Below are positions 9,261-64,000 of a stretch of DNA of 64,000 nt, piece by piece. A model generated the notes under the pieces. The model ran no database searches. It was not told the DNA's origin and was given only the letters and a program-made list of their open reading frames with translations. Source of the DNA: Procambarus clarkii (Eukaryota; Arthropoda; Malacostraca; Decapoda; Cambaridae); assembly GCF_040958095.1 (NCBI RefSeq), contig NC_091165.1:27054479-27118478 (forward strand), written 5' to 3'. Position 1 is the stretch's first letter, and every line of letters begins with the position of its first letter. A program made the position numbers and the translations under genes.

Positions 9261-9525
9261 CTATTTCTACCTTACTGGCGGTGATATTACCAACCCTGCT
9301 CGCTTGGCAGGTTGGAAGTCACAAGACGGAGCCCCCTCGCTCGCGGAGCTCATCTTAGGAATATCATTTGGCTAAACATGCCTTAAGAGTCACTGTCGCA
9401 TAAGAAAGTAAACATTAAACATTGTAATTCATCTCTAGAATTAATTGCAAATGTTAAAATCAGAAGTGAAAAACGACACAATGGAATAAAGACGTTCGGT
9501 GAAGTTCGGGGACACCTTTACTGCT

Positions 9526-9578
9526 CGTGTCGAGGAGGTCACCGACTCTCGAGAAAGTCGGTGACCCCCGACGACACG
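9526..9578. repeat. Two-part hairpin
   Basis: Inner stem GTCACCGACT (9538-9547) pairs perfectly with AGTCGGTGAC (9556-9565) over an 8-base loop. Outer arms CGTGTCG (9526-9532) and CGACACG (9572-9578) also pair. Identical in copy B at 46347-46399. Confidence 0.85.
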
Positions 9579-9689
9579 CCCAACAAGAGTGTGCTTACCT
9601 AACAATATATGTGGTTACTTAGGTTTAGATCTATATTTAGTCCTCTGCTCTATTAACTATCCGACTAAGTACCTGTAACGTGTCGTCCG

Positions 9690-9860
9690 AGTTGATTGAT
9701 TGATGAAGATTAAGCCACCCAAAAGGTGGCACGGGCATGAATAGCCCGTAAGTGGTGGCCCTTTTGAGCCATTACCAGTATCAATAGCCGATACTGGAGA
9801 TCTGCGGAGGTGCGACTGCACCCTGCGTGACGGGAGATGTCTCCGTGAGTGAGTTAAGAC
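9690..9860 (+). mobile_element. SINE-like repeat (GATTGATGAAGATTAAGCC family)
   Basis: Begins GATTGATTGATGAAG, then GGTGGCACGGGCATGAATAG, and continues to a GGAGGTGCGACTGCACC palindromic segment. The first 50 bases recur at 7915-7965 on the other strand. No internal coding capacity. The 3' boundary is uncertain. Confidence 0.6.
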
Positions 9861-9898
9861 ACTAGACTTCTGGAATGGAGGAGTTCCTGCTGTTGTAT

Positions 9899-9962
9899 AT
9901 TATGGTACAGGTTATGGTACCCTATTATGGTACAGGTTATGGTACCCTATTATGGTACAGGT
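9899..9962 (+). repeat. 25-bp tandem repeat, about 2.5 copies
   Basis: Unit ATTATGGTACAGG + TTATGGTACCCT, copies at 9899 and 9924 plus a partial third. Itself a dimer of a 12-13-bp TATGGTAC motif. Confidence 0.85.
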
Positions 9963-10212
9963 AGCTGTTGGTACAGGTCAGACACCAAGTTGTCCAGACA
10001 CTTAGTTTTAAACACGGCTCTTATATTTGTCAGCTACGCATCTGCTGCCACTTTTGTTCGTGTAAAGCTGTTGGTGTTAAGTGCTGTAAGTAGTCTCTCT
10101 CTCTCTCTTTCCGCTTCCTGTAGTTGGCTTTCACTTGTAGTGCAGATTCTCTCCGGTCTCTTGTCGCTTTTGCCATGTCATCTTTTGCTTTTTGCCATCG
10201 TCAAGTGGTCCA

Positions 10213-10368
10213 TTGGTCTGTGTCCAGGAAGAACAGTGCCCGGTGGACTTGTTGGTCTGTGTCCAGGAAGAACAGTGCCCGGTGGACTTGTTGGTCTGTG
10301 TCCAGGAAGAACAGTGCCCGGTGGACTTGTTGGTCTGTGTCCAGGAAGAACAGTGCCCGGTGGACTTG
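10213..10368 (+). repeat. 39-bp tandem repeat, 4 exact copies
   Basis: Four identical 39-bp units beginning TTGGTCTGTGTCCAGG and ending CGGTGGACTTG. Because 39 is a multiple of three, each open frame stays open as a 13-residue repeat on both strands. This explains five overlapping open frames of 63-149 codons here; none resembles a protein family. Confidence 0.95.
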
Positions 10369-10786
10369 TATCTTAATGTAATTACAATACAACCCATTGA
10401 TAAAGGTTCATTATGCACACAATTCATCAATTACTACAGAAAAAGCGCTGTATTTTTTGCGATATGCTCAGTTTTGTAATGATGTGCGGAACAGCATAAC
10501 TGATAAATATAACTGGAAGTTTGAACAACTAGGATATAAACGTCAAAAACATTTAGATACAAATAGGACACAAATAGACAAAGTTCTGAACTTGCTAGTC
10601 AGACGAAAACAGAACAGTGTGAAGCTTTATGTCTTGAGAGATAAGTAGACAGATAACGGGCGACACAAGCAGGCTGTGAGGGTGTACTGTTAACCCTATA
10701 CAGGTAGTTCAGATTATTCAATCATTGGAGGGGGAAACCACATACGGTATCTGGAGTAACACAAACATAATGTGGCGTACATTCTG

Positions 10787-11002
10787 CGATCCTGTGGTCC
10801 TGGGTTCGATCCCAGGCGCCGGCGAGAAACACTGGGCAGAGTTTCTTTCACCCTATGCCCCTGTTACCGAGCAGTAAAATAGGTACCTTGGTGTTAGTCA
10901 GCTGTCACGGGCTGCTTCCTGAGGGTGGAGGCCTGGTCGAGGACCGGGCCGCGGGGGACACTAAAAAGCCCCGAAATCATCTCAAGATAACCTCAAGAAG
11001 AT
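10787..11002 (+). mobile_element. tRNA-derived SINE with LINE-like 3' end, 5'-truncated
   Basis: Contains a box B GGTTCGATCCC near 10803-10813, then the SINE body (GCAGAGTTTCTTTCACCC, GTTACCGAGCAGTAAAATAG). The tail is GGCCTGGTCGAGGACC, GGACACTAAA and CTCAAGATAACCTCAAG. It matches the fuller copy at 16655-16899 (minus) except that the box A part of the head is missing or degraded. Confidence 0.85.
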
Positions 11003-11196
11003 ACATCTTTACTATTCCTGGTCAGGATAAACAATACTACCAGAAACGCTGACGATCAAAACATTAATGTCTTACATGGATCAGAGGGAGACAGAAGTGA
11101 GAATACTTGTGCACACCTGAAAGGAAATCAATGCCGATGTACACTATGACAGACGGGGGAGGAGGGGGGGGGGGTGAATAAATATTTGCTGACGGG

Positions 11197-11292
11197 CAGT
11201 GTACTCCCCCTCTATCACAACACTTCACCAGTGTACTCCCCCTCTATCACAACACTTCACCAGTGTACTCCCCCTCTATCACAACACTTCAC
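11197..11292 (+). repeat. 32-bp tandem repeat, 3 exact copies
   Basis: Units start CAGTGTACTCCCCCTC at 11197, 11229 and 11261. Also at 48014-48109. Confidence 0.95.
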
Positions 11293-11894
11293 CAGTCTAC
11301 AGCCACTCCACTAAACCACACTACAGTATGGTTTAGTCATCATACAGCCACCCCCCCCCCCCCATACAACAGCTTCACTCACCCATCACATGCCATGAGT
11401 TTTCCGTCAAGTGCAGTGTCAGAGTACTGGGTCAGGGGCGCAACAAGGAGTGCTATCATCGATTTCCTCCCTCCCTTACCCCTTACCCCCCCCCCTTTCG
11501 CGATGGCGCCCCCTCTCAACCACCACCCCCTTACTCGACTCCCCGCTTGCCTTCTCTCCCCTCACACGCAAACATGCACCAGGCGATACTTTCACACATC
11601 TCTTATATTCACCACAGTACCGTTGATATTCACAATTCTCTCACTTTTACAAAGGTCAAGTGGACCTTTATGTTGACACATCACCAGGACACTGACGACC
11701 AGGCTCAACGCGTCCGCGACACTGATAAACAATGGGAAAATAATTCATTATGACAATCTTTATTTGCCAAAAATTACTACCAGTACCGCCCAGAAGGCAT
11801 TGGTACACAGGTTTACGAGTAATATGTTACACTTGTATCATCGGCTTATGCCAAGTTAGCCAGCATAGGAACAGCCTTCAGACTAGCACTAATC

Positions 11895-11921
11895 ATTTCG
11901 ATCCCGGGTTGGGATCGAAAT
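11895..11921. repeat. Perfect 11-bp hairpin
   Basis: ATTTCGATCCC (11895-11905) pairs with GGGATCGAAAT (11911-11921) over loop GGGTT. Conserved at 48708-48734. Confidence 0.85.
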
Positions 11922-12454
11922 ATTGTACACACACTACGTTTCCTCGTGCTTTCAAAATAGCGGGTTCTTATTTTCATTCAGTATATAATTAAAAATAATA
12001 ATAAATGATTCTGAATGATCACTGCTACATTCTAAAAGCCGTTCCTATGTTGGCTTCCCTATCATACGCCGCTGATAAGTAACATATTACATGTTAAACC
12101 AGTGATAAATGTAACATATACGTCAGACCATTCCTGACATATGTGGCGCCTGCGTGGAGTGGTGTCTTCTTCAACACAAAGTATAGTTGGTGAAGGACCA
12201 GAAGTATGCCACCACACTGCTCCCAGAACACAGGTAAAAAGTTACGAGGAAAGACTAATGGAATTAAACCTCGCGTTACAATGGAGAGAGTTGGTCTAAG
12301 GGAGCCATGATTATCACACACAATTTCTCGGTGAAATTTATAGGACAGACAAAGGCAAATTACACTAAAAAATTTGTTTTTATTTGTTCCTAACACACAA
12401 GTGCTATTTTCTGATAGTTCATGCCTTAAAAGTCTAAGAAACGGCTGTTATTCC

Positions 12455-12590
12455 CTTCAAATTTTGCTTTGACCTTTGGCTAAGGCAGCTAAGGTATCTT
12501 CTTGAAGATACCTGAAGGCTGCCGACTTATGAAACCGTGTCTCCCAGCTCTAAATAACGATTCAGAAACCTTCGTGTACCTTCAAGGCGA
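12455..12590. repeat. Dispersed repeat with internal hairpin
   Basis: Shares CTTCAAA.TTTGCTT and flanking words with 14405-14530. Contains a hairpin AGGTATCTT-CTTG-AAGATACCT (12492-12513; copy B 49304-49325). Bases 12501-12524 match 14501-14524 in inverted orientation at 23 of 24 positions. Confidence 0.55.
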
Positions 12591-12900
12591 CGTATTAAAG
12601 TTGTCTTAGGCAGATGTCAAATAAAATTTTGAGGGGGGAAAAATAACTATTTTCTATACTTTTGAAGGCATACGCAATGAAAAAATAATACTTATACCCA
12701 GGAACACAAATTTTACATTATATTTGTATGGCAAATACATATACCGGCATGACCCCCGTGCTTGTATCAATGTTATGGCTTGGCCGTGGCACCTGAACAA
12801 GCACATTGATCATCTGCGGCTCTTCATGATGGTGAAGTCTTCAGAGGAGGAGGAGGATGTTTGGGAAATGTGAAACTAGGTAACGTTTGCAGACTAGTGA

Positions 12901-13019
12901 GGGAGAGAAGGGTGGTGGGGGTGGGGTAGAGAAGGGTGGGGTAGAGAAGGGTGGGGGAGAGAAGGGGGGGGGGGGAGAGAAGGGGGGGGAGAGAAGGGTG
13001 GGTGGGGGGGGAGTGAGGG
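12901..13019. repeat. G-rich polypurine tract
   Basis: About 120 bases of almost pure G/A on the plus strand, built of GAGAAGGGTGGGG-like units with runs of up to about 12 G. It has many potential G-quadruplex runs. Length differs by about 1-2 bases in copy B, as expected for homopolymer calls. Confidence 0.85.
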
Positions 13020-13512
13020 GGTTGCACGTACCCTCCCCGCCCACTTTATTAAATAAATTTAAGCAAGAGAAATTTTTCTTTCATCTGGTTTAATATTCCA
13101 CTGCAATGTAAGTTGTATACAATTTCGCCTCCAGTTAAAGCGCGGGGGTCACTTAGCAAATTAGAAACATGAACCGAAACTGGGCAAAAGGTGAGGCGAG
13201 CTGGGTGGGGAGCCATCTCAAAGTCACTTCCACAAGGCACTCACCTTCCATGCACTTGCTTGTTTAACTCAGAATTTTGTAACATTAATGACAGCTCTGC
13301 ATTCCTCCTAACAGTACTTCTCTTACTCCTCCACAATAATGCTCCAAGAAGAATCCGTTTTTTCTCTTGTTTTCATTTTTGGTATATATATTTCAAAACT
13401 CCAATTCACTGAGGAAAATCTTAACTTCTAACATGCAATTTTGATTAGAGCTCAAGCGAGAAAACCATGTTGAAGACGGGTCCGGCTCATCCCCCCCCTC
13501 TCCCCTTTCGTG

Positions 13513-13587
<75 letters not shown>
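13513..13587. repeat. (CA)n microsatellite
   Basis: About 75 bp of CA dinucleotides. The copy-B counterpart is 83 bp (50321-50403). Open frames of valine-cysteine repeats across it are artefacts. Confidence 0.97.
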
Positions 13588-13588
<1 letters not shown>

Positions 13589-13734
13589 AACCCCATCGGT
13601 AATTGTACAAACAGTTTCGTCAGAGATCTTAAAACATCTCAAGTGAGCACGGTTAATCCTACCCACAGAGCATGATGTACGTAGTGGCTTTGCTGCAGTG
13701 ACACCATTTCTAGTCTCGACTCTTAGCATGGAGC

Positions 13735-13985
13735 ATACCTGGAGAGGGTTTCGCGAGTTGTTCTGCTTCCCGAGAGCGGCCTGGGGCCAGGCTTGACTTG
13801 TGATAACATGACCCAACAGGCTGTTGCTTGGAGCGGCCCGCAGACCCCCACATCCACTACAACCTGGTTGGTACGACACTTCTTGCAAGAACTGATCTAA
13901 ATGCTTCTTCAAAGACTTCCACCTTTAGTTCTAGAAACATTTACAATGTTTGTTGGGAGAGCATTAAATAGCCGCGGCCTTCAGA
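13735..13985 (-). mobile_element. LINE fragment (family A)
   Basis: The minus strand encodes a decayed RLFNALPTNI, then LKKHLDQFLQ, then YQPGCSG and GGLRAAPSNSLLG. This is the end of the reverse transcriptase ORF and the family A 3' segment, ending in a CCAGGTATG tail. Copy B at 50551-50801. Confidence 0.7.
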
Positions 13986-14756
13986 AGTAGCCTAAGTCAC
14001 TCTGCACAATAATATAATGTTAATAAGAGAATGGCATATAAATTTGTCAAACTATTTGGTCTGGTTACCTAAGTACAGTACTCGCATAATTGTCGTTATC
14101 TAATTGTGCTTGCGAGTAATTGAGCTTTGGCTTTTGGGCCCTGTCTCTCAACCTTCAATTAACTGAGCTGGCATACAGGCTTCCGATCCTATAGGGTTCT
14201 ATCATAGCAACATTTGAAACGAGGTACTCTTCCTCCACAAATTCACTTTGTGTATTCCATTTCTTGACTACTAGGAAACTGAACAAGTTCTATTCATGTC
14301 TGTGACTTATTTCGTTACTCAATTTCAGTATGTACCTTTCCTTGTTCGTGTACCACCAATCTTAAATAATGCAATGTAAAAGTATAGAAAATGGCAATTA
14401 TTTCCTTCAAACTTTGCTTAAGATAGCTTAGGTAAGACGTCTCTCAGGTGCCTGAATGCTCCAGACTCCTTATCTAGAGCCATGCCATCGTTTCGTTAAC
14501 CGGCAGCCTTCAGGTACCTTCAAGACTCCTTCCCTGTTGCCATGTTGACACTACAATGTCAGTTGTAGTGTTAACGCAAGACACTACATACAATGAGTTG
14601 AGCACACCAACAGCAAATTTAATGTCAACTATTGATGGTTTACAGTTATAATGGTAAATGAATGATAATGTACACAAATATTGGTGAAACACGGTTTAGA
14701 ATATCCCTAACAAACACCAAGGTGAAGGTGAGGAAGAAGGGGGCGCAGCATGAAAT

Positions 14757-14880
14757 TGAAATAAGTTTATTGAGGTAAAATACACACAAAGGGATGAGGT
14801 AGCTCAAGCTATTCTCACCCCGTTCAGTACATCGTGTTAATACATACATAGGGGCGCAGCATGGGGATGGTAAACTAGCA
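14757..14880 (-). mobile_element. Retroposon 3' end (TTTTACCTSAATAAAC family)
   Basis: The minus strand ends TGTATTTTACCTCAATAAAC, sharing TTTTACCT.AATAAAC with the element at 28349-28490. It includes an AATAAA signal. I recall this as a frequent decapod repeat. The upstream boundary is uncertain. Confidence 0.5.
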
Positions 14881-15242
14881 GTGCCTTCACCCTCCCCCGG
14901 CACCAGTCTGAACCCCGACCTTTACTTTCCACCTCACAACACCCGTATTATATGTTACAACCTTACACCCCCCATCACTATACTGTGCTATCGGGTCTCC
15001 CATGTTATCCTGAACTGATCTCTTACTCCCTGTATAAACACATGCTCTTGCTCTCCCTCTCGTTATCAGGCACGAATCCACCCCAGGTTATAAGGGACTG
15101 GTGTAGCGAGCAACAGCCTAGAGCGGTCACCATGGAAACCCGAGGCTCGGGTCGAGGTGGCAAAGTAGACTGGTGAAGCTCTGCCACATCACAAACCTCT
15201 GAGCTAGTTCTCTCAAGTGAAGCAGCAGCAGGAGCTCTGTCG

Positions 15243-15416
15243 TCGATATATGTGCTTCAGCCTACAGTTTAGACCTATTGTCTTATGTGTGACCCTCTGT
15301 CCTGCGTGACAGTGAATACCAGCATTATCCTCACTTTTAATAAGACTATCAAAATCCTCACATTAGGCAAAATTGTAATTAATTTTGTCAATAAAGATGT
15401 TAATAATAATAATAAG
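15243..15416 (+). mobile_element. Retroposon 3' end with AATAAA and TAA-repeat tail
   Basis: Plus-strand counterpart of 6706-6895. Ends GTCAATAAAGATGTTAATAA followed by AATAATAATAAG. The AATAAA signal and trinucleotide tail are typical of non-LTR elements that end in TAA repeats, such as I-type elements. Copy B at 52059-52232. Confidence 0.75.
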
Positions 15417-15880
15417 TCGCAGCCAAGGCATTCCCACCACCCTGCACCCACCACCACCAACTCACTTGGGTTTGCTCAGTGAAACGTAGTCAGTGACTCG
15501 AGTTTCCATCGAGTAAAATGTCTAATTTCCAGTCCAAAGTTCCAAGATTTGGTCACGCTCTCATTCAGGATTCTACGCGCGTAATCCTCGGAGATGACCC
15601 GACACAGCACTAACGTAAATACAAACCAGTTTTGAGCTTGCATCAAGGAACCGGTTCTGTTTTGTCACCAACTGGAAGCAGGTGTGGCGGCGATGCAGCA
15701 AAATTGTACACCCGGCACTGTGCTGACCTACATACTCACTCACGTTTCCGGTCACCTTACGTTGCTAGGGCTTATAAAATACTATTCCATGACAATTACT
15801 ACAATAATCTAAAGTAGATGAAGCTCCCGACCCACAACTACCGTTAATTAACGGATGAGAATTATCCACTAATACTAAGG

Positions 15881-16654
15881 CTCGTACTTATCAAAGAGGC
15901 TCGTACTCGTCAAAGAGGCTCGTACTCGTCAAAGAGGCTCGTACTCGTCAAAGAGGCTCGTACTCGTCAAAGAGGCTCGTACTCGTCAAAGAGGCTCGTA
16001 CTCGTCAAAGAGGCTCGTACTCGTCAAAGAGGCTCGTACTCGTCAAAGAGGCTCGTACTCGTCTAATACGCTCGTACTCGTCTAATACGCTCGTACTCGT
16101 CTAATACGCTCGTACTCGTCTAATACGCTCGTACTCGTCTAATACGCTCGTACTCGTCTAATACGCTCGTACTCGTCTAATACGCTCGTACTCGTCTAAT
16201 ACGCTCGTACTCGTCTAATACGCTCGTACTCGTCTAATACGCTCGTACTCGTCTAATACGCTCGTACTCGTCTAATACGCTCGTACTCGTCTAATACGCT
16301 CGTACTCGTCTAATACGCTCGTACTCGTCTAATACGCTCGTACTCGTCTAATACGCTCGTACTCGTCTAATACGCTCGTACTCGTCTAATACGCTCGTAC
16401 TCGTCTAATACGCTCGTACTCGTCTAATACGCTCGTACTCGTCTAATACGCTCGTACTCGTCTAATACGCTCGTACTCGTCTAATACGCTCGTACTCGTC
16501 TAATACGCTCGAACTCGTCTAATACGCTCGAACTCATCTAATACGCTCGTACTCATCTAATACGCTCGTACTCATCTAATACGCTCGTACTCATCTAATA
16601 CGCTCGAACTTATCTAATACGCTCGAGCTTATCTAATACGCTCGAGCTTATCTA
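15881..16654 (+). repeat. 19-bp minisatellite, 41 units
   Basis: Units begin CTCGTACT every 19 bases from 15881. Units 1-9 carry AAAGAGG at the end, units 10-33 carry TAATACG and are nearly identical. Units 34-41 show accumulating changes (CTCGAACT, CTCATC, CTCGAGCTTATC). Same length in copy B (52697-53470). Confidence 0.97.
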
Positions 16655-16899
16655 TCTTGAGGTTATCTTGAGATGATTTAGGGGTTTTAGTGTCCCCGCG
16701 GCCCGGTCCTCGACCAGGCCTCCACCCCCAGGAAGCAGCCCGTGACAGCTGACTAACACCCAGGTACCTATTTTACTGCTAGGTAACAGGGGCATAGGGT
16801 GAAAGAAACTCTGCCCATTGTTTCTCGCCGGCGCCTGGAATCGAACCCAGGACCACAGGATCACAAGTCCAGCGTGCTGTCCGCTCGGCCGACCGGCTA
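16655..16899 (-). mobile_element. Full-length tRNA-derived SINE
   Basis: On the minus strand the head GCCGGTCGGCCGAGCGGAC holds a box A (16879-16890). A box B GGTTCGATTCC lies at 16837-16847, and GCCGG at the start can pair with CCGGC after it. The box A wording (GGCCGAGCGG) suggests a class II (Ser/Leu) tRNA ancestor. The body is as in 10787-11002, and the tail has GACCGGGCCGCGGGGACAC then CTCAAGATAACCTCAAGATA. Inserted into the 19-bp minisatellite. Not a functional tRNA gene. Confidence 0.9.
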
Positions 16900-17155
16900 C
16901 AATACGCTAGTATTATCTAATACGCTCGTACTTATCTAATTCGCTAGTATTATATAATACGCTAGTATTATATAATACGCTCGTACTTATCTAATTCGCT
17001 AGTATTATATAATACACTAGTATTATATAATACGCTAGTATTATATAATACGCTAGTATTATCTAATACGCTCGTACTTATCTAATTCGCTAGCATTATC
17101 TAATTCGCTAGTATTATCTAATACGCTCGTACTTATCTAATATGCAAGTATTATG
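16900..17155 (+). repeat. Diverged continuation of the 19-bp minisatellite
   Basis: Units such as ATACGCTAGTATTATCTA and TTCGCTAGTATTATATA, 17-19 bp with many substitutions, continue the array on the far side of the SINE. They fade out near 17155. Copy B at 53713-53968. Confidence 0.85.
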
Positions 17156-20100
17156 ATAACTTGTCAAGACTCGCACGGTATACATGAACCCTGGTGCACC
17201 ACCCCCGTGAGGCGTGTAGAAAGCCAAACTGGTATAGATGAACCCCGGCAAACATTACACAAGCACCTTCACCGTGCACAAAAACTTGCATATTCAAGAC
17301 TGTTACGACACTGACGATACTCGGCACCGACGGCAGCAAACACACTGTAGGCTCAAGAGACCCGAAATTCATGGAATTGTAAGAGACGGCTGGGGAAACG
17401 CCCCATAAATAATGTCAACTCGACTCCCACAAAATATCAACCCTTAGGCAACCATATGAGCCAGACGAGAGGCCTCACATATATGATGAGACACATGCTT
17501 AACCGTGCAAAAGAATTAATAATCTACTTCCAAGGGACTTTACTCAAGAGAAACCCAAGCTAAACTCTTGTCTCTATAACGCTTTGGAACCGTCCAGCGG
17601 GTCAATAACCCCGCACCGGTTCCTGTCTAGAAAATAATAATTATAACAAACAGCTGACGCACAGTTTTTCCTCTTATGTGGTGTCTAAGGTAACTTAAAA
17701 TACTAAATATTCTAGCTGGATCTTACCCAAGTGTCTAAGACTGACTATGCGAGCGTGCGTGTTGTGGGGACAGGGGGTAACAACCTACACACGGGAGTGT
17801 AGGACGAGATGAGAACTGAACGAGAGTGCAAGTGGGCGAATAAGTGGAGGGAGGCGACTTTGCAGAGGAGCTTGGCGGCACGTGAGGCGGGTGTGGGGTG
17901 ACCGGCCCCTCATGGGTCACTAGCCACCCACCACCCCCCTCCCTTCACCCCAACCGTGCAAAACCCCACCTCGTGAAGCAACTCCCCTCCCCTCCCATCC
18001 CCCACTAAGCTGTCCCTAGTCCCCCCTTGTGGCTCTGGCCAGCCGGCTTCCACAACTGCCCTCCAGCGACACTACAGGTTGGTACGATCAGAGCGCCTCT
18101 GTTGTCGCCTTTCACTCCGCTTCACACACCACCTGTTTGCCCCACACCAGCTGAAACGAGCCCCAAGTATAATACATTCTTCAGTTCCTTATCATCGAGT
18201 TACCTAGAGATGATTCCAGAGTTCTTCTACGCCAAGCCCGCTCTGGGAGCACGCTTATCTAATCAGTTCGCTTTGAATCACCTGTCTGCCCTCCTGGCTG
18301 AAACTTGTGTGGTCTCTGGAGGAAGGTGGCAAGGGCTTGCTACCACATTTACAGTTTCAGGGGCAGGCACCACCTTATCTGCTGCATCACTCCTCACTTC
18401 AAAAGCCTCTCCCGTTTCATGGTGGGAGCCAAATAGTGCCTTCTAACTAAACTTCACGATCATAGAAAAGTTGAGTACAGACAGATTCCCATGTTACTAA
18501 CCGTAATACTGCCCACACTTCTCACCCCCTTCCCTCTCATCCCAGCCCGTGTTTACCAAGCATCCCCTCACCCCACGTCACACCTGTATCACCTGTATAC
18601 CGGCTACGCCCTCCCCCCCTCACATGTGTACTACCCTAACCCCCCATCCCACCCCTCGCCTGTATACCAACGAACCTTCTCCCCACCTAGCCTGTGTATC
18701 GACTAATCCCATCCACGCTCCTCTGTGTATCGACTAACCCTCTCCCATCCCCCCCACCTGTGTACTGATGCCCTCCCATCTTGTATACCTGCCATCTTAA
18801 CCGTACAAGCGTATCCATTCCATCCCATTGTCTCCCGAGTTTCATCCATTATTTAAGACGACCTTCCCGTCTACTCCTCCTTGACAGTTTCCCCTCCCAC
18901 CCACACTTGCTTCACAACCCATAATATTAAGATGGTACTTATTCATTTTGTTTACGTAATTATCACTACGAAGATGTAAAATATGTTAACTAGGGCCATT
19001 AGTGTTGTTACTAAAGGCTGGAGGTGTGCACGAATGACTCAAAGGCGGATGCACAGAGCAGGGTTCAGTCACACGGCCCACTCATCACCACTTCAAAATT
19101 CCACTTGACCCAGAAAGACTCTGGAGAACTAGCGGGCGTCTGCTCCAGTGACAAACATTTCATCGACTAAAGCCCACACTTGCTACACAATATTAGCATT
19201 AACTATACCTGTTAAAAGCTACCTAACCTAACCACAAGTGATTACATGGTAAAATACTCTAGTCCTAAGTCAGTTCCAACAACCAAAGATCTGACTTGGT
19301 TATAACTAACGGTATAATATCCCTGCAAGCGACGGCGAACACCCTTTTGTCTTGCTCACCAAACGGGACACAAGCGGCGGCGGGAGTTGGGTCTGGTGTA
19401 TCCGGTGATCTTCACATCCGGCGACGGGGTTCTGGCTGCAGCACCGGCGTCGCCTCAGGCAACCGCAAGAACATCACTTTATGGAAAGGCAACAGAAGGT
19501 AGCACGTAACCAGCCCGCCTCCGAGCAACGCTCCACAGCCCGCCTACCAGCAAGCATCATAAGACCCTTTCTGATCTTTTGTTCAATAAGAATATGCCTA
19601 GGCTGAGTGCCACTTGGTGCCGCAGTCTCCAGCACCCTATCGTGATTTTTCAATTAAGCTTTACACAGCCTGCCTCTTAACCAGTTTGAAAATGACCTAC
19701 ACCTTTGTTCATTCATTTATATCTTGGTACATATCTTTAGCTCAAATGATCTTACAGAGCCTAGGGACGGTGTTCATACCACTCGTGATCCAGTCTCTGC
19801 TAACTGAACCTACACACACGCTAGTTTATTAAGAGTTGGGAGGCGGCGGCGGCACCGTGGCTCATCCCCCGTAAACACAAATTGGTAAGTCTTACACACA
19901 GAAACATCACCGTCAGAGAGAACCACCTCCGAATCCGACGCCGTGTACTCAATACTCAGAAATCATAGTGTGTTACTGAGAAAGTCCCAGTCAACCACTC
20001 TGCCTCGGGGTTTACAACATGAGTGTGTCCCCGTAAGTCACCCTCCGGGGAGCTATATCATCACGCCAACCCGAGCGCACTCCAACTTTAGTGCCAACTC

Positions 20101-20717
20101 ATGAGGTCAAAGGTTAAAACATATGCACACCCGAAGCAATCACAATGTCGCCCTGCACTATAAATGATTGCTGGAACAGTTAACTATAATACGAGATTAG
20201 GAGTAAAAAAAAATACGTTAAGAACGGAAACCTTTAAAAACTAATCAAAGGAAATAAAGGCTGCACAGATTGATAAGAGAAGAGAGGGGGGGAAGTGGGA
20301 AAGCGATGGAAGGGGGGAGAGAGATGGGAGGAAGTAGTGAGGTGAGCGAGCAGAGTTGCCAGCACTCGCCCAGCCCCACCACAACCATGACTCATGCGCA
20401 CTCACAAACCTGCCACTACCACACTTGCTCCCACAAACTCTCCATATACGAGAGACTATCACTGCGCAAAAAATAACTATTCTTGTTAAACTACACATCG
20501 ACGTTAGGTCTACTTCCAGTAGCAAAATAAACACAGGCCACTTGATGCGTTGCCCGGCGACATTAACCATAAAAGAAGCCATTTTCCCCTATATTTTTTT
20601 AATATATCACGTTATTGTGATTTTTATTGTGCATTACGTCCCTTGTGGGACTCCCCGAGTAACGCTAAGCACTAAATTATATACAAATCACAGTCGCTTG
20701 TTATATATAGTCTAACA
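17156..20717. other. Gene-free stretch of the duplicated block
   Basis: No supported gene. The longest open frame (18027-18446, 139 codons) is not like any family I know. In copy B an extra C breaks its 5' part. 18490-18790 is a pyrimidine-rich stretch with degenerate CCTGTGTAYCGACTAAYCCC-like units of uneven length. Confidence 0.45.
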
Positions 20718-20759
20718 AAAATTGTCAGTCAGGTTTTTGCCGCCTCGTCTGACAATTTT
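20718..20759. repeat. Inverted repeat, 11-bp stem
   Basis: AAAATTGTCAG (20718-20728) pairs with CTGACAATTTT (20749-20759) over a 20-base loop containing a T-run. Counterpart at about 57529-57570. Confidence 0.8.
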
Positions 20760-50404: not shown

Positions 50405-50550
50405 AACCCCATCGGTAATTGTACAAACAGTTTCGTCAGAGATCTTAAAACATCTCAAGTGAGCACGGTTAATCCTACCCACAGAGCATGATGTACGTAG
50501 TGGCTTTGCTGCAGTGACACCATTTCTAGTCTCGACTCTTAGCATGGAGC

Positions 50551-50801
50551 ATACCTGGAGAGGGTTTCGCGAGTTGTTCTGCTTCCCGAGAGCGGCCTGG
50601 GGCCAGGCTTGACTTGTGATAACATGACCCAACAGGCTGTTGCTTGGAGCGGCCCGCAGACCCCCACATCCACTACAACCTGGTTGGTACGACACTTCTT
50701 GCAAGAACTGATCTAAATGCTTCTTCAAAGACTTCCACCTTTAGTTCTAGAAACATTTACAATGTTTGTTGGGAGAGCATTAAATAGCCGCGGCCTTCAG
50801 A
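50551..50801 (-). mobile_element. LINE fragment (family A), copy B
   Basis: Counterpart of 13735-13985. Confidence 0.7.
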
Positions 50802-51572
50802 AGTAGCCTAAGTCACTCTGCACAATAATATAATGTTAATAAGAGAATGGCATATAAATTTGTCAAACTATTTGGTCTGGTTACCTAAGTACAGTACTCG
50901 CATAATTGTCGTTATCTAATTGTGCTTGCGAGTAATTGAGCTTTGGCTTTTGGGCCCTGTCTCTCAACCTTCAATTAACTGAGCTGGCATACAGGCTTCC
51001 GATCCTATAGGGTTCTATCATAGCAACATTTGAAACGAGGTACTCTTCCTCCACAAATTCACTTTGTGTATTCCATTTCTTGACTACTAGGAAACTGAAC
51101 AAGTTCTATTCATGTCTGTGACTTATTTCGTTACTCAATTTCAGTATGTACCTTTCCTTGTTCGTGTACCACCAATCTTAAATAATGCAATGTAAAAGTA
51201 TAGAAAATGGCAATTATTTCCTTCAAACTTTGCTTAAGATAGCTTAGGTAAGACGTCTCTCAGGTGCCTGAATGCTCCAGACTCCTTATCTAGAGCCATG
51301 CCATCGTTTCGTTAACCGGCAGCCTTCAGGTACCTTCAAGACTCCTTCCCTGTTGCCATGTTGACACTACAATGTCAGTTGTAGTGTTAACGCAAGACAC
51401 TACATACAATGAGTTGAGCACACCAACAGCAAATTTAATGTCAACTATTGATGGTTTACAGTTATAATGGTAAATGAATGATAATGTACACAAATATTGG
51501 TGAAACACGGTTTAGAATATCCCTAACAAACACCAAGGTGAAGGTGAGGAAGAAGGGGGCGCAGCATGAAAT

Positions 51573-51696
51573 TGAAATAAGTTTATTGAGGTAAAATACA
51601 CACAAAGGGATGAGGTAGCTCAAGCTATTCTCACCCCGTTCAGTACATCGTGTTAATACATACATAGGGGCGCAGCATGGGGATGGTAAACTAGCA
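51573..51696 (-). mobile_element. Retroposon 3' end, copy B
   Basis: Counterpart of 14757-14880. Confidence 0.5.
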
Positions 51697-52058
51697 GTGC
51701 CTTCACCCTCCCCCGGCACCAGTCTGAACCCCGACCTTTACTTTCCACCTCACAACACCCGTATTATATGTTACAACCTTACACCCCCCATCACTATACT
51801 GTGCTATCGGGTCTCCCATGTTATCCTGAACTGATCTCTTACTCCCTGTATAAACACATGCTCTTGCTCTCCCTCTCGTTATCAGGCACGAATCCACCCC
51901 AGGTTATAAGGGACTGGTGTAGCGAGCAACAGCCTAGAGCGGTCACCATGGAAACCCGAGGCTCGGGTCGAGGTGGCAAAGTAGACTGGTGAAGCTCTGC
52001 CACATCACAAACCTCTGAGCTAGTTCTCTCAAGTGAAGCAGCAGCAGGAGCTCTGTCG

Positions 52059-52232
52059 TCGATATATGTGCTTCAGCCTACAGTTTAGACCTATTGTCTT
52101 ATGTGTGACCCTCTGTCCTGCGTGACAGTGAATACCAGCATTATCCTCACTTTTAATAAGACTATCAAAATCCTCACATTAGGCAAAATTGTAATTAATT
52201 TTGTCAATAAAGATGTTAATAATAATAATAAG
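52059..52232 (+). mobile_element. Retroposon 3' end with TAA-repeat tail, copy B
   Basis: Counterpart of 15243-15416. Confidence 0.75.
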
Positions 52233-52696
52233 TCGCAGCCAAGGCATTCCCACCACCCTGCACCCACCACCACCAACTCACTTGGGTTTGCTCAGTGAAA
52301 CGTAGTCAGTGACTCGAGTTTCCATCGAGTAAAATGTCTAATTTCCAGTCCAAAGTTCCAAGATTTGGTCACGCTCTCATTCAGGATTCTACGCGCGTAA
52401 TCCTCGGAGATGACCCGACACAGCACTAACGTAAATACAAACCAGTTTTGAGCTTGCATCAAGGAACCGGTTCTGTTTTGTCACCAACTGGAAGCAGGTG
52501 TGGCGGCGATGCAGCAAAATTGTACACCCGGCACTGTGCTGACCTACATACTCACTCACGTTTCCGGTCACCTTACGTTGCTAGGGCTTATAAAATACTA
52601 TTCCATGACAATTACTACAATAATCTAAAGTAGATGAAGCTCCCGACCCACAACTACCGTTAATTAACGGATGAGAATTATCCACTAATACTAAGG

Positions 52697-53470
52697 CTCG
52701 TACTTATCAAAGAGGCTCGTACTCGTCAAAGAGGCTCGTACTCGTCAAAGAGGCTCGTACTCGTCAAAGAGGCTCGTACTCGTCAAAGAGGCTCGTACTC
52801 GTCAAAGAGGCTCGTACTCGTCAAAGAGGCTCGTACTCGTCAAAGAGGCTCGTACTCGTCAAAGAGGCTCGTACTCGTCTAATACGCTCGTACTCGTCTA
52901 ATACGCTCGTACTCGTCTAATACGCTCGTACTCGTCTAATACGCTCGTACTCGTCTAATACGCTCGTACTCGTCTAATACGCTCGTACTCGTCTAATACG
53001 CTCGTACTCGTCTAATACGCTCGTACTCGTCTAATACGCTCGTACTCGTCTAATACGCTCGTACTCGTCTAATACGCTCGTACTCGTCTAATACGCTCGT
53101 ACTCGTCTAATACGCTCGTACTCGTCTAATACGCTCGTACTCGTCTAATACGCTCGTACTCGTCTAATACGCTCGTACTCGTCTAATACGCTCGTACTCG
53201 TCTAATACGCTCGTACTCGTCTAATACGCTCGTACTCGTCTAATACGCTCGTACTCGTCTAATACGCTCGTACTCGTCTAATACGCTCGTACTCGTCTAA
53301 TACGCTCGTACTCGTCTAATACGCTCGAACTCGTCTAATACGCTCGAACTCATCTAATACGCTCGTACTCATCTAATACGCTCGTACTCATCTAATACGC
53401 TCGTACTCATCTAATACGCTCGAACTTATCTAATACGCTCGAGCTTATCTAATACGCTCGAGCTTATCTA
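52697..53470 (+). repeat. 19-bp minisatellite, 41 units, copy B
   Basis: Same unit count and same variant order as 15881-16654; offset is 36816 at both ends. Confidence 0.97.
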
Positions 53471-53712
53471 TCTTGAGGTTATCTTGAGATGATTTAGGGG
53501 TTTTAGTGTCCCCGCGGCCCGGTCCTCGACCAGGACCACCCCAGGAAGCAGCCCGTGACAGCTGACTAACACCCAGGTACCTATTTTACTGCTAGGTAAC
53601 AGGGGCATAGGGTGAAAGAAACTCTGCCCATTGTTTCTCGCCGGCGCCTGGAATCGAACCCAGGACCACAGGATCACAAGTCCAGCGTGCTGTCCGCTCG
53701 GCCGACCGGCTA
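53471..53712 (-). mobile_element. Full-length tRNA-derived SINE, copy B
   Basis: Counterpart of 16655-16899, 3 bases shorter: AGGACCACCCC replaces AGGCCTCCACCCCC near 53535. Confidence 0.9.
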
Positions 53713-53968
53713 CAATACGCTAGTATTATCTAATACGCTCGTACTTATCTAATTCGCTAGTATTATATAATACGCTAGTATTATATAATACGCTCGTACT
53801 TATCTAATTCGCTAGTATTATATAATACACTAGTATTATATAATACGCTAGTATTATATAATACGCTAGTATTATCTAATACGCTCGTACTTATCTAATT
53901 CGCTAGCATTATCTAATTCGCTAGTATTATCTAATACGCTCGTACTTATCTAATATGCAAGTATTATG
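53713..53968 (+). repeat. Diverged 19-bp minisatellite, copy B
   Basis: Counterpart of 16900-17155. Confidence 0.85.
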
Positions 53969-56900
53969 ATAACTTGTCAAGACTCGCACGGTATACATGA
54001 ACCCTGGTGCACCACCCCCGTGAGGCGTGTAGAAAGCCAAACTGGTATAGATGAACCCCGGCAAACATTACACAAGCACCTTCACCGTGCACAAAAACTT
54101 GCATATTCAAGACTGTTACGACACTGACGATACTCGGCACCGACGGCAGCAAACACACTGTAGGCTCAAGAGACCCGAAATTCATGGAATTGTAAGAGAC
54201 GGCTGGGGAAACGCCCCATAAATAATGTCAACTCGACTCCCACAAAATATCAACCCTTAGGCAACCATATGAGCCAGACGAGAGGCCTCACATATATGAT
54301 GAGACACATGCTTAACCGTGCAAAAGAATTAATAATCTACTTCCAAGGGACTTTACTCAAGAGAAACCCAAGCTAAACTCTTGTCTCTATAACGCTTTGG
54401 AACCGTCCAGCGGGTCAATAACCCCGCACCGGTTCCTGTCTAGAAAATAATAATTATAACAAACAGCTGACGCACAGTTTTTCCTCTTATGTGGTGTCTA
54501 AGGTAACTTAAAATACTAAATATTCTAGCTGGATCTTACCCAAGTGTCTAAGACTGACTATGCGAGCGTGCGTGTTGTGGGGACAGGGGGTAACAACCTA
54601 CACACGGGAGTGTAGGACGAGATGAGAACTGAACGAGAGTGCAAGTGGGCGAATAAGTGGAGGGAGGCGACTTTGCAGAGGAGCTTGGCGGCACGTGAGG
54701 CGGGTGTGGGGTGACCGGCCCCTCATGGGTCACTAGCCACCCACCACCCCCCTCCCTTCACCCCAACCGTGCAAAACCCCACCTCGTGAAGCAACTCCCC
54801 TCCCCTCCCATCCCCCACTAAGCTGTCCCTAGTCCCCCCTTGTGGCTCTGGCCAGCCGGCTTCCACAACTGCCCTCCAGCGACACTACAGGTTGGTACGA
54901 TCAGAGCGCCTCTGTTGTCGCCTTTCACCTCCGCTTCACACACCACCTGTTTGCCCCACACCAGCTGAAACGAGCCCCAAGTATAATACATTCTTCAGTT
55001 CCTTATCATCGAGTTACCTAGAGATGATTCCAGAGTTCTTCTACGCCAAGCCCGCTCTGGGAGCACGCTTATCTAATCAGTTCGCTTTGAATCACCTGTC
55101 TGCCCTCCTGGCTGAAACTTGTGTGGTCTCTGGAGGAAGGTGGCAAGGGCTTGCTACCACATTTACAGTTTCAGGGGCAGGCACCACCTTATCTGCTGCA
55201 TCACTCCTCACTTCAAAAGCCTCTCCCGTTTCATGGTGGGAGCCAAATAGTGCCTTCTAACTAAACTTCACGATCATAGAAAAGTTGAGTACAGACAGAT
55301 TCCCATGTTACTAACCGTAATACTGCCCACACTTCTCACCCCCTTCCCTCTCATCCCAGCCCGTGTTTACCAAGCATCCCCTCACCCCACGTCACACCTG
55401 TATCACCTGTATACCGGCTACGCCCTCCCCCCCTCACATGTGTACTACCCTAACCCCCCATCCCACCCCTCGCCTGTATACCAACGAACCTTCTCCCCAC
55501 CTAGCCTGTGTATCGACTAATCCCATCCACGCTCCTCTGTGTATCGACTAACCCTCTCCCATCCCCCCCACCTGTGTACTGATGCCCTCCCATCTTGTAT
55601 ACCTGCCATCTTAACCGTACAAGCGTATCCATTCCATCCCATTGTCTCCCGAGTTTCATCCATTATTTAAGACGACCTTCCCGTCTACTCCTCCTTGACA
55701 GTTTCCCCTCCCACCCACACTTGCTTCACAACCCATAATATTAAGATGGTACTTATTCATTTTGTTTACGTAATTATCACTACGAAGATGTAAAATATGT
55801 TAACTAGGGCCATTAGTGTTGTTACTAAAGGCTGGAGGTGTGCACGAATGACTCAAAGGCGGATGCACAGAGCAGGGTTCAGTCACACGGCCCACTCATC
55901 ACCACTTCAAAATTCCACTTGACCCAGAAAGACTCTGGAGAACTAGCGGGCGTCTGCTCCAGTTGACAAACATTTCATCGACTAAAGCCCACACTTGCTA
56001 CACAATATTAGCATTAACTATACCTGTTAAAAGCTACCTAACCTAACCACAAGTGATACCATGGTAAAATACTCTAGTCCTAAGTCAGTTCCAACAACCA
56101 AAGATCTTGACTGGTTATAACTAACGGTATAATATCCCTGCAAGCGACGGCGAACACCCTTTTGTCTTGCTCACCAAACGGGACACAAGCGGCGGCGGGA
56201 GTTGGGTCTGGTGTATCCGGTGATCTTCACATCCGGCGACGGGGTTCTGGCTGCAGCACCGGCGTCGCCTCAGGCAACCGCAAGAACATCACTTTATGGA
56301 AAGGCAACAGAAGGTAGCACGTAACCAGCCCGCCTCCGAGCAACGCTCCACAGCCCGCCTACCAGCAAGCATCATAAGACCTTTCTGATCTTTTGTTCAA
56401 TAAGAATATGCCTAGGCTGAGTGCCACTTGGTGCCGCAGTCTCCAGCACCCTATCGTGATTTTTCAATTAAGCTTTACACAGCCTGCCTCTTAACCAGTT
56501 TGAAAATGACCTACACCTTTGTTCATTCATTTATATCTTGGTACATATCTTTAGCTCAAATGATCTTACAGAGCCTAGGGACGGTGTTCATACCACTCGT
56601 GATCCAGTCTCTGCTAACTGAACCTACACACACGCTAGTTTATTAAGAGTTGGGAGGCGGCGGCGGCACCGTGGCTCATCCCCCGTAAACACAAATTGGT
56701 AAGTCTTACACACAGAAACATCACCGTCAGAGAGAACCACCTCCGAATCCGACGCCGTGTACTCAATACTCAGAAATCATAGTGTGTTACTGAGAAAGTC
56801 CCAGTCAACCACTCTGCCTCGGGGTTTACAACATGAGTGTGTCCCCGTAAGTCACCCTCCGGGGAGCTATATCATCACGCCAACCCGAGCGCACTCCAAC

Positions 56901-57528
56901 TTTAGTGCCAACTCATGAGGTCAAAGGTTAAACATATGCACACCCGAAGCAATCACAATGTCGCCCTGCACTATAAATGATTGCTGGAACAGTTAACTAT
57001 AATACGAGATTAGGAGTAAAAAAAAATACGTTAAGAACGGAAACCTTTAAAAACTAATCAAAGGAAATAAAGGCTGCACAGATTGATAAGAGAAGAGAGG
57101 GGGGGAAGTGGGAAAGCGATGGAAGGGGGGAGAGAGATGGGAGGAAGTAGTGAGGTGAGCGAGCAGAGTTGCCAGCACTCGCCCACCCCACCACAACCAT
57201 GACTCATGCGCACTCACAAACCTGCCACTACCACACTTGCTCCCACAAACTCTCCATATACGAGAGACTATCACTGCGCAAAAAATAACTATTCTTGTTA
57301 AACTACACATCGACGTTAGGTCTACTTCCAGTAGCAAAATAAACACAGGCCACTTGATGCGTTGCCCGGCGACATTAACCATAAAAGAAGCCATTTTCCC
57401 CTATATTTTTTTAATATATCACGTTATTGTGATTTTATTGTGCATTACGTCCCTTGTGGGACTCCCCGAGTAACGCTAAGCACTAAATTATATACAAATC
57501 ACAGTCGCTTGTTATATATAGTCTAACA

Positions 57529-57570
57529 AAAATTGTCAGTCAGGTTTTTGCCGCCTCGTCTGACAATTTT
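57529..57570. repeat. Inverted repeat, 11-bp stem, copy B
   Basis: Counterpart of 20718-20759. Confidence 0.8.
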
Positions 57571-60321
57571 CTCAATGAGGCAGGGAGGGAGGGGTGAGCG
57601 GTACGGCTCACCTGAGACCCGGGAGGGTGTACATGAAGGCTGTCTCGCCCACGGCCACGGCTCAATCCGCTTTCTCTACCACCAACCTATACTCCTCGCT
57701 AGCTTCACGCATTATTTCCAAATACTGTACACTAATACTAAGTGTGAAACGCGCGAAAACATTTTTTTTTAACTTACATTTTTTTTAATACATAATTGAA
57801 TAGTTTTATCAGCATTCTAAACCATTTTTTAAAATACAAAACGGCACTTTAGATCTAAAATATAACTAATTTATCTAAATTTACTAAACTTTTTAAATTT
57901 TATAATATTCAAAATTGCACCATATTAATCAAAATGGTACATGTGTCCATGTATCCTATACATCTTCACTAAAGTTACAAACATTAGGGACAATAAACCA
58001 TTTGCTGGTATGTAGTGCATAAGCTCAAGCAACAGATTTGCGCCGAAGAAAACACACTGATAACTTTACAGAATAATACTGCCACTAGAAAACCATACAG
58101 ATAAGAGACAAAAAAAATCGTGCTCAGCAATGAACTGGACATCCTGTGAATGGAATTTTGTTGTCCAATGACCATGATGAGCCACATGCTGAACTAGCAA
58201 GCAAGGCAGTCAGGAAACCTACAGCACTGAGGTTTTTACCTACTTGACAGCAGTGGTAGCAAAACTTTAAACTCGTATGAAGTACAAGTTGGCTTGCTTC
58301 TTTAGTATGCACCGCTCTCTCTGACTTCTACAGGATTGGCAGTACATCAAAGCCTCAAGCACTGGAGACATGTCGGTTGCCTTAATGAATGCACAAGACT
58401 AATGTACTTAAAGATTCTCATCTTGGCCCAGCTTCATGCAAAACCAGAAGACGGCAACTACAACACAAGGCCCTCAGCCAACTGTAGTCTCAAACTGTCT
58501 TATCATTCTTAACAACGCTCCCTCTGATCATTCATTCTTCGACTGATTCACATTTCCAACACGTCTTCTGGACCGTACTGTTGATTAGAAATTAAGGCCA
58601 TTTGAAATAAAACCGGCATTCATTTAGCTCCAGCGTCATACTATACACTCATTCTGTATTAGTGCAATAACATCAAATAAAGTTTAGGCAATACTTGACA
58701 AATCAAATTATGCTCATTCAACAAAAAAATTATTTTTACGGTCAGGCTTCCAGTATTAATTTAGGATAATTTTTAAACCTTTTAATGATATTTTGTTACT
58801 ACACGTTACTACAATGACCACCTTTTTTATTAATGTGATCATAACTTTCAAAAGCTGTCAGAGACGATCAATACAAAATGCCATCAATACCTCTCGCTAA
58901 CCAGGGATCATGACGAGCCACAGGAGGATGGAGTAGCTTATGGTTATGGCGATGACACCAACAACGGCATTAATGACGGAAAATGGGGCGGAGGAGAAGA
59001 GGGGTGGAGGGGTGCAAACAGCAACCCGTCTCCTGTTTACTCTTCACCACCCCGCCCTCTAGTGCTATAATTAGTAGTGTCTCGCTGCCTGGCCAGCCAC
59101 ACCTCTCTCTTCCCTTCAACATGTACACCCAGATCCTGACCACGCCTTGCTCTTTTCCGCTCTCACTAACAACTCTTCTCTACTTCATCTCGCTTACTCC
59201 CCAAGCCAATGTGGACACAGGTGTGTCGTGACGAGTCCTCTGAGAACCCCACACCTGCTGCAAAACCATAAATACACAGCTACAACGTGGCGAACTGCAT
59301 GCATCCTTACAGTTCCACTGGCAACTAATCTCGCCCACACATGACACTTTACTTGTGGAAGTGGTTTCAGTCCATGAGCCAATTTGTGTGTAACCTTTCT
59401 TCACTACAAATCCCAGGATGGGTAAACAGTGCAAAGTAAACTAAAACGCTGGAATCTGAAATGCCGTTTACATAGAAGTATTTAATTACTTTGTTGGATA
59501 TCATTAGTTTCCAGTAAAGTTGTGTTAAATCTTGCAGGAATATTTATATCTAACTACAATAAACAATTATAGTACAGTATCACAATTGATCATAAAGGCC
59601 ATCTCTCTGTCACAGATTCGAGGTATAACATTTTAAGGCAAGAGAACATGCATAGGCCGAAGTTAATATCACCTGTAACTGCTTGAACTAGGGCTAATGC
59701 TATGTATGTGGTTGTTTACGAAATAAACTTTTATCCTGCAACGGCTAATTGAACAAAACAATTCCGAAACTTTAAAAAAAATCACATCATTAAAGAAAAG
59801 GGCATTTTCGATACAAAATTTGTATGGTGCATCATCCCTATTATTCTAATTGCAGTAATCCAACATGCCTATTATACTTAAGCAAATACTGTCTACTAAT
59901 GCATCTTGACGGGTTGAGGACACACCAGACTTGTCCTTGACTAGTGCTTCAACAACTAGTCAGTGGGTCCCCCTCAACGTGCATGAACCTGCACTTAACC
60001 TTCCCTAGAGAAGAACAATAAATAATATCAATTATACCGTTAACAAATCAATACCGTCCAAGAGCGAGTGCTGCGACAGCAATATGCAATAATACTGTAT
60101 ACGAGTCGAAGTCCTATGCACTGTGTATATGTAGCGGGAGAGTACAGGTAAAGGTTGGTGTTCAGGCGATTATACTTAGTATAGTATAGCGAGTGTAAGC
60201 GTGACCAACTAAAAGGGTGTTGACCTTAAGTAAGACTTAACAGCTAAATTAAATGGCGGACTCCAGCACTATGGGTACCATATACCAGCGCCCACCACTA
60301 GCAAAACACACTAACCATAGT

Positions 60322-60351
60322 ATTAAATTCGCCAGATCTGCGGAATTTAAT
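60322..60351. repeat. Broken palindrome, copy B
   Basis: Counterpart of the 32-bp palindrome at 23511-23542, with one C and one G missing, one in each arm. Confidence 0.9.
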
Positions 60352-61738
60352 AGCGTACCCTGCCGACGACGCTATGGTACCTCTTCTCCTTAAGCTCTTC
60401 CTAATAGACTTATGTCAATAACCTTTTAAAGCCAACTGACCTTTGCCGGTACGCTATATAAATTAACAAATTTCAATTTTTTTCCACAAGTGGGTAGAGA
60501 ATATACGACTGCCAATTCGTCTCAGCAGGCAGAATTCGGCACATTCTGGATCAACAGGAACCCGAAATGGTAAATATTAACATCAAGTAATTATCAAAAG
60601 GCGGCACCAAGCCGGGAAGGCTATGTAGCTAACGTCTCCAAGTGTCTAGCTATTTCTGTAGCCTGCAAATGGATCATATCTCCATAATTTTCATAGAAGT
60701 ATTCGCATTCAGACATCAGTATTTGCGTGTGAAATGCTGTATATCCACATTTTGGATTGGTTTGTGACGATACATGCACCTTAATAGGTACTATATGCCT
60801 GCAAAATATCTTCCATTAACACAAATATCAAATACTTTAGTTTGGTTATCCAGTGGTGCCTCTTTAAGACTTACAATACTAAAATATGAGGGGGTGGCGC
60901 CGTTCTCAATATAAATCTATAAAGACTGGGCTACACACCATTCACTTACAGTATTTTGAAACAGTAACTAATAATACTATATCGTGGCGACAAGAAGAAA
61001 ACAAATTGGATTGGTGAACGTGTCATTTTCCAACCGACCACGCCCACATACCCGGCCCCGCCACGATATGTCGCCGGTGGTGCGACATCAACCCACTTCG
61101 CCCATCACAGCTCGCAGTAACTTGGCCAATATTTCCCAGATTTAATTGGTGGCACTCACTCCTGTCACAGCAACCTCAATTTCATTTTATTCGTTGACCT
61201 GGCTACCACCAACCTGGCTACACGAATTCGCCTTGTCAGACGAATTTCATTTAAAATATATAAACGTTCAATATTACATTATATTAAACTATTAACACAC
61301 TATTGAAGTTTACATATGCACATCATAAAGATAAGAGGGATGAGGGTTATGTCTGACGTCTTATTGAGTGTTGACCGACTTCTCCAGCAATGTAACTTTA
61401 TAACATGTTTACGTAGGCTATATATTTGATGATGTGACAATATGTACAGTCATGAAACAGACTGGTAATGTATGTGGTACAAAAAATTAAACAAAATATA
61501 ATTAAAAACTTGGCAATATTGATCTGAAAAGCCCCTCAACACGGCCTGGCGAGAGGCGAGCATTCAACAACCTTTGAATTGAATGCAAAGAACAAGACCC
61601 TTAAACATTTAGACAATTTCATTGATATAAAGTGAACCTTCAATACTTAATAATTATAATAATTCATTGTGTCGAGGGTCAAGAAGCCAGGTTATATATA
61701 ATGTTAGGCTTGTAACAAGGTCCCTCCCTCCAGCGTTG

Positions 61739-61889
61739 AATTACTGACCCCGCCCAGGATGCAACCCCACAAGTTAACTCCTAGGTACTTACTTTACTGC
61801 TAGGTTGACAGAAGCATGAGGTGAAAGGAAACGTGCCCTACCATTTCTGTGTCGCTCGAGATTCCAACCCGGAATTCTCGATTGGGAGT
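61739..61889 (-). mobile_element. Diverged SINE, copy B
   Basis: Counterpart of 24930-25080. Confidence 0.5.
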
Positions 61890-64000
61890 TGAGAATGAAC
61901 CCGACTGTACTTCAGGGAATTTTATGCTTATCCTAGTTATATCTCCGTAAATTAACGTAAGAAACATGTTTCCAAGTATTGAGTATGTGAAGCAATATAG
62001 AATCAAGATCTGGAAAGGCTCAAAGAACGAGAGGTTTAAACGTCAATGGATTCAGATTGACAGTACTATATTATGAAAATTGACAGGTTCAAGATTCTCA
62101 AGTTTGCAACATCTCGATACTACGAACACAATTTTTGAATATTAGAACTTACATAAATATTCATAAACATTCAGATTTTAAATGAGTATTACTATCATTA
62201 AATTTATTCTGTACCTAACGATTGGATTAAAGAGTAATCTTTACCTTCACTGCAAGGCCCACAACAACAACAAAAACACGAGAACACCGTCTAATTAAGT
62301 AGTCATTAGTCTAATTGATGTATTTACTAGTGACACCAACAAGCCAATACCTCAGTGGGCCTTGGTTTGGGGCGACAGACACGCATTTATTGATTTTTAC
62401 CGATTTGTTTGGGTGGTGTTGGCCCTCACGAGGACTGGGCCTGGCCTTGGGTGCCAGGTAGCTCACCCTTCTCCTCCTCAACTCTTACTTCAATGTCAAA
62501 TCGCTACTTGTGTGTTGTCGAGTGACACTCGACTGTCTTGCCAACATTAACATAAACTTAATAACTAATACGTTACCTGAAATTCGAGTATATGGTATCT
62601 AGGCACTATTCATGTGTATCCTGAATATGCCTCTCCTAATTAAGATGATCAAATATTATTTGGTAATGGTGTAAAGGCGTGTGAACACTTTTCCCTAGTG
62701 TTTGTTAAAGATATGTTATAGGTGACCCCCATTCCGTATATTAAATAATATAAGACGGAGAGTAATATTACCCTTCAAATCGAACATTGACCCCAACCTT
62801 TATCCTTTGATCACACTGTACTCTATTGTGCTCTTGAGAACTGAACTACTCAACCAGGGAACACACACACTGGGTGGCTGGGGGTACAGAGGAACATGCT
62901 GTAATCTATACATCACTCCTAATCTATACATCTTTATTAAAAGGGTCACACGACGTCATACCAAAAGCCAGCTACAGCAAGAACCACGCCTCCTTCTCCG
63001 CAATGTTTCCTCGTAGATTATCGCACCAGCTCGAGACACAGAGGTGTACATGAGGCCAAGTGGCGTATAGAACAACGCGGTAATATTTTAAACCCGGTGT
63101 AGAGAGGAGAGTTGGTGCCAGAGGGGTGGTGGGAGGGAGTGTCTCTCACCACCGGCACCACCCCCCGCTCATAACACCTCCCTTACCAAGACATTCACAC
63201 TCAAATCTTGCCCTTACCTTGTGGCCCGGGGTAAATCCACCCGATATATCGATCAGTGACAAGAGTGTGTAGTGAGTGTTCTACATATATTTCACACTAG
63301 GCCCACCACAACGCTACCGCAACACTGACACAGGCCAAGCTACTCCACTCTCACCGCTGGCCAGCCTCGCCACTCTCCACCGCGGAACACAAACTAGTTC
63401 CTCCAAAACTATGTCACACTCCACTCTCTCAATATAACAGCTTTAACATTTTGTATATATGGTACTTGCAGTGTACGTGTCTAATGTTCGAGGCTTCAGG
63501 TTAGCTTATACATTCTTAAATGTGGAATTCCTGAATTGATATCTATCCACGCCTAGCAATTGTGCCAATTCTACGAAAATAATGCAGTAGAATTCTGTTT
63601 TGACTTGAACTTGTGTTTTAAAAGTAATAAATCAGACTTTAAAATATTACACCAGTTTAACATTGCCCTAAAATCAAGCATTTGTATTAATACAGACGAA
63701 TATCTTCAGCCAATTAAATCCCTTTAACACGGACAAATTATATATAAATATAAGCTACAAAATTAAATATCCCGATCATATTATCAAGAAAGAAAAGAAT
63801 GCGCCAATGCTGTTTAGTTGAGAGGAAATAAAAGCTTAAAGAACACAGAGATATAACAGATAGTAGTATCCGCTCCAGCTAAAAGTGCCGCTTCCCGCCA
63901 TAAGGGTGCAGACGTGGCACCGCCGCAACAGTCTCCTCATTTGAGAATGATGTCATTGACGCCTTTGACTATACTTGCACGTGCTCAACGACTCAGCCTT

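Follow-up and report, generated by a model that had tools for sequence, protein, structure and literature searches.

The window analyzed here is a stretch of 64,000 nucleotides of the Procambarus clarkii assembly (C16:27054479-27118478 of a 4,027,284,227-base genome in 2308 contigs), to which 100 kb of flanking sequence was added on each side, giving 264 kb that is referred to throughout in window numbering. It is interrupted by one gap, and the sequence that ends on the left of this gap (contig 1) and the sequence that begins on its right (contig 2) are nearly the same. The features at the locus are as follows.

9286..45607, forward strand: copy A, the 3' end of contig 1, overlapping contig 2; matches 46108-82413 at 99.728% identity.
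13517..13587, no strand: CA microsatellite, longer by 8 bases in copy B.
15880..16644 (in copy B, 52696-53460), no strand: 19-bp minisatellite of 40.3 units, identical between A and B.
16719..16725 in copy A (in copy B, 53535-53539), no strand: complex lesion in a very abundant dispersed repeat, copy A being 3 bases longer.
42636..45607 (in contig 2, 79436 to about 91219), no strand: GC-rich nested minisatellite of 23-bp, 29-bp, and mixed 22-28-bp units, inside which contig 1 breaks.
45608..46107, no strand: scaffold gap of exactly 500 N, the sole N run in the 264 kb.
46108..64000, and onward to 82413 beyond the window, forward strand: copy B, the 5' start of contig 2, as defined by alignment.

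A first-pass annotation of the window had described a block of 17.9 kb that occurs twice, the second time after the 500-N gap. Alignment bears this out, with 9286-27196 matching 46108-64000 in direct orientation at 99.66% identity as far as the right-hand edge of the window, and with the flanks included, the true extent of the repeat is 36,322 bp (9286-45607 against 46108-82413; 36,360 alignment columns with 7 mismatches, 70 gap openings, and 92 gap bases). A match of such length excludes chance. The boundaries of the repeat are the last base of contig 1 and the first base of contig 2, the latter agreeing with the earlier remark that copy B starts at a contig edge, and the end of contig 1 forms a dovetail with the start of contig 2, the arrangement by which homotype false duplications are recognized. 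Apart from repeats internal to the minisatellite, this overlap is the sole match of at least 1 kb among the megablast matches listed for the 264 kb, and no duplication breakpoint or junction between the end of one unit and the start of the next was seen in these 264 kb of assembled sequence, the gap itself being unreadable. The unit length of about 36.8 kb that had been given for an alternative tandem duplication is simply the offset between the copies (46108 minus 9286, or 36,822), the sum of the overlap of 36,322 and the gap of 500.

Each of two 3-kb pieces of the overlap has two near-identical full-length places in the genome, all of them on C16, when the best candidates are scored; scored in the same way, a piece taken immediately to the left of 9286 and another from the distal end of the right flank each have a single full-length place. 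For none of these four pieces (two from the overlap and two from the flanks) was a third or allelic full-length place found among the matches listed.

The minisatellite in which contig 1 ends is built, counting from 42636, of 27.7 copies of the 23-bp unit and 40.5 copies of the 29-bp unit, followed by the mixed 22-28-bp units. Contig 1 stops about 3 kb into this 12-kb array, and contig 2 spans it as far as about 91219, past which GC content is ordinary. Within the contig 2 array, the 22-28-bp units compose higher-order units of about 417-441 bp. These longer repeats carry a recurring GTGGGTTCT...GGTAGGGCT motif. Over the minisatellite stretch that the copies share, the lengths of A and B are within 6 bases of 3,058.

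With regard to coding content, Pfam gave no match at E values up to 0.1 for 20 of the 115 listed open frames (18 of the 20 lying in the overlap), so that the correct copy cannot be chosen from its reading frames. A search of the window for tRNAs yielded none, and all Rfam families stayed below their gathering scores there. An open frame of 161 amino acids (39783-40268, reverse strand), which recurs without change at 76584 in contig 2 and likewise has no Pfam match at E values up to 0.1, shows a hydrophobic, signal- or membrane-like stretch by eye and could be an exon. The dispersed repeat at 16700-16745 is very abundant and uniform, a single 35-base string having 41,433 exact copies in 4.03 Gb. 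Elsewhere in the assembly, contig C2308 begins close to COX1, and three further whole-profile copies of COX1, in which TGA codons are the only stops, are present in C47, C68, and C78; these may be either mitochondrial DNA that has been copied into the nucleus or mitochondrial reads put in the wrong place by the assembly. A 21-base reverse primer printed for P. clarkii (PMC12842422) has one exact match in this genome, its reversed control having none; the match lies on C23 at 31.1 Mb and not on Chr38 at 6.0 Mb, as the numbering of that paper would have it, and the forward primer of the pair is absent from the 3,021 bases around the match.

Differences between the copies were counted as events over the overlap up to A 42599, the array (A 42600-45607, 3,008 of the 36,322 bases) being counted apart and aligned with a stiffer gap cost because its 29-bp units are identical. 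The 33,344 columns of the first part hold 82 gap bases and 5 mismatched columns, which resolve into 68 events: 63 indels and 5 nominal substitutions. Most of the indels are homopolymer length changes (52), with the remainder comprising 5 changes of tandem units, 5 losses of one or two bases that were not classed as homopolymer changes, and 1 other. The mismatch pairs at A 19243-19244 and A 24085-24086 turn identical upon homopolymer compression, and since they vanish in this way, four of the five nominal substitutions are paired homopolymer indels. The fifth sits in the complex lesion at A 16719-16725, which is also the source of two of the 63 indels. In the array, 12 columns differ, and 2 of these differences are substitution-like (A 43319 and A 45405). 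The whole overlap retains three substitution-like differences: two fall in the minisatellite, and the other belongs to the complex lesion.

The count of substitutions against indels that the first-pass annotation had proposed to make by aligning the copies is thus 5 to 63 (array excluded), and its statement that there is hardly any substitution holds, four of the five being homopolymer pairs. Its description of the differences as nearly all indels of 1-2 bases, mostly in homopolymers, is right for the greater part (homopolymers account for 52 of 63, and the majority of indels span 1-2 bases) but overlooks indels of 3 and 5 bases, the 8-base change in the CA repeat, and the complex lesion.

The composition of these events is far from that of variation within the species. 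Among 89 Procambarus clarkii, 14,046,984 SNPs and 2,160,652 indels are given in the source consulted (PMC12842422), which corresponds to a proportion of 0.867 for SNPs; at that proportion, the probability of 5 or fewer substitutions in 68 events is 3.8e-49. If none of the substitutions seen is real, the 95% upper bound on the real substitution rate is 9e-5 per site. The events are patchy, with 0-14 per 2-kb bin (chi-square of 73, 16 degrees of freedom, p = 3e-9, a value that is approximate because of a few adjacent event pairs and a short last bin), and copy B is on the side of the loss in 42 of the 63 indels (p = 0.011).

Copies of the dispersed repeat elsewhere in the genome provide a control for deciding which form of a difference is the aberrant one. 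The 35-mer of copy A at the complex lesion has its 41,433 exact occurrences distributed over 20,751 forward and 20,682 reverse, and the corresponding 32-mer of copy B occurs exactly once, which is copy B itself. Because the A form is found genome-wide and the B form only once, it is, on these string counts, copy B that holds the aberrant form at the A 16719 lesion. A loose 10-base form of the lesion string of copy B has seven matches in nine loci, the matches all falling elsewhere in this repeat rather than on the lesion. At A 10963, where copy A has five A residues and copy B has four, the genome contains 87 exact copies of the A string and 42 of the B string, and the nine loci show the A form five times and the B form once, six of the nine having been picked for their likeness to copy A; as sequence counts, these do not discriminate between the copies.

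False duplications of this kind belong to known classes. Rhie et al. 2021 describe homotype false duplication, the first type of which is a dovetailing overlap at contig boundaries, converted by scaffolding into tandem copies that flank a gap; the class is characterized there by low read depth and by k-mers whose number in the assembly exceeds their support in reads, and the overlap is usually about the size of one read, although this is not strictly required (PMC8081667). A second source identifies such duplicates by gaps between the copies, by depth at the haploid level, and by a lack of heterozygous k-mers (PMC9516828). The crayfish pair resembles the homotype class as set out in PMC8081667 in that what would be the same locus dovetails between a contig end and a contig start and stands in tandem after scaffolding with a gap between, and in that the copies show no sign of haplotype variants, none being specific to a haplotype in the assembly sequence (63 indels and 5 nominal substitutions); it differs in that an overlap of 36 kb perhaps exceeds the usual read-length size. 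Judged from the assembled sequence, those features of the homotype class, other than size, that can be checked in an assembly are present. With heterotype false duplication, as described in PMC8081667 and PMC9516828, the pair shares its placement on one scaffold with a gap between the copies, but the allelic SNPs that would be expected of that class are essentially absent.

We consider the 36-kb repeat to be, with a probability of roughly 0.94, a false duplication formed by two unmerged contig ends of a single locus, and hence probably an assembly error rather than biology. This is the reading that the first-pass annotation had preferred, and it is favored by the edge-to-edge geometry, the few substitutions, the equal lengths of the minisatellites, and the lesion form that is found in copy B only. 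Old paralogs and allelic contigs were both rejected on the near absence of substitutions. The allelic case, in which a single locus would be represented by both of its parental alleles, one in each contig and set next to each other, has in its favor that false duplications in the assemblies of PMC9516828 were chiefly heterotype and that the related crayfish Cherax quadricarinatus has a heterozygosity of 0.86% (PMC10106460); at an assumed heterozygosity of 0.1-0.9%, however, some 30-300 SNPs are expected in 33 kb, and three substitution-like differences remain. A run of homozygosity would evade this SNP test, but the contigs would then be indistinguishable from those of one haplotype, and we regard two alleles as the least probable source of the pair.

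Scarcely more credible is a real tandem duplication of very recent date, its unit measuring at least 36.3 kb. The junction would then lie in unassembled sequence of the gap, and the indels would again be consensus errors, here superimposed on two genuine copies. The copies are adjacent and direct, their near-complete identity once homopolymers are discounted is as in very young copies, and a junction within an unsized gap would likewise put the ends of the match at contig edges. Minisatellites invite unequal exchange, and the GC-rich nested one here might have triggered such an event. Neither contig, however, shows a junction or breakpoint, and the gap must happen to conceal both where unit 1 ends and where unit 2 begins. 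A duplication also demands almost no substitutions (within the bound of 9e-5 per site at 95% if none is real) and a minisatellite stretch that has stayed equal within 6 bases of 3.06 kb. An almost substitution-free tandem duplication of at least 36 kb, perhaps set off by the minisatellite and with its junction in the gap, therefore seems very improbable to us.

Under the preferred reading, that of an unmerged contig overlap, a single genomic locus would have ended up at the edges of two contigs. Running rightwards, contig 1 breaks about 3 kb into the GC-rich nested minisatellite, and contig 2 carries the path through the array; the left end of contig 2 would reach back 36.3 kb into the same sequence. 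A path broken in the array and resumed by another contig may be the plain cause of the failure to merge: the assembler would have left the dovetail as it stood, and the scaffolder would have ordered and oriented the contigs and separated them by 500 N, producing an apparent direct duplication. The differences between the copies would have arisen as errors in the consensus, for the most part as homopolymer indels, that cluster in a portion of the overlap, with a read type to match. Spacers of 500 N are those that the Hi-C scaffolder 3D-DNA inserts. The Cherax quadricarinatus assembly was scaffolded with 3D-DNA, and our own arithmetic on its published table gives about 496 gap bases per join (PMC10106460); by analogy, the present genome may have been scaffolded with the same program.

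For overlaps of this kind, a cheap check that requires no reads is available, in that the abundant copies of a dispersed repeat elsewhere in the genome can reveal which contig has the aberrant base string. Anyone working with this assembly would count 36.3 kb of C16 twice and would find the mapping of reads there ambiguous. Any exon inside the overlap would pass for a tandem paralog.
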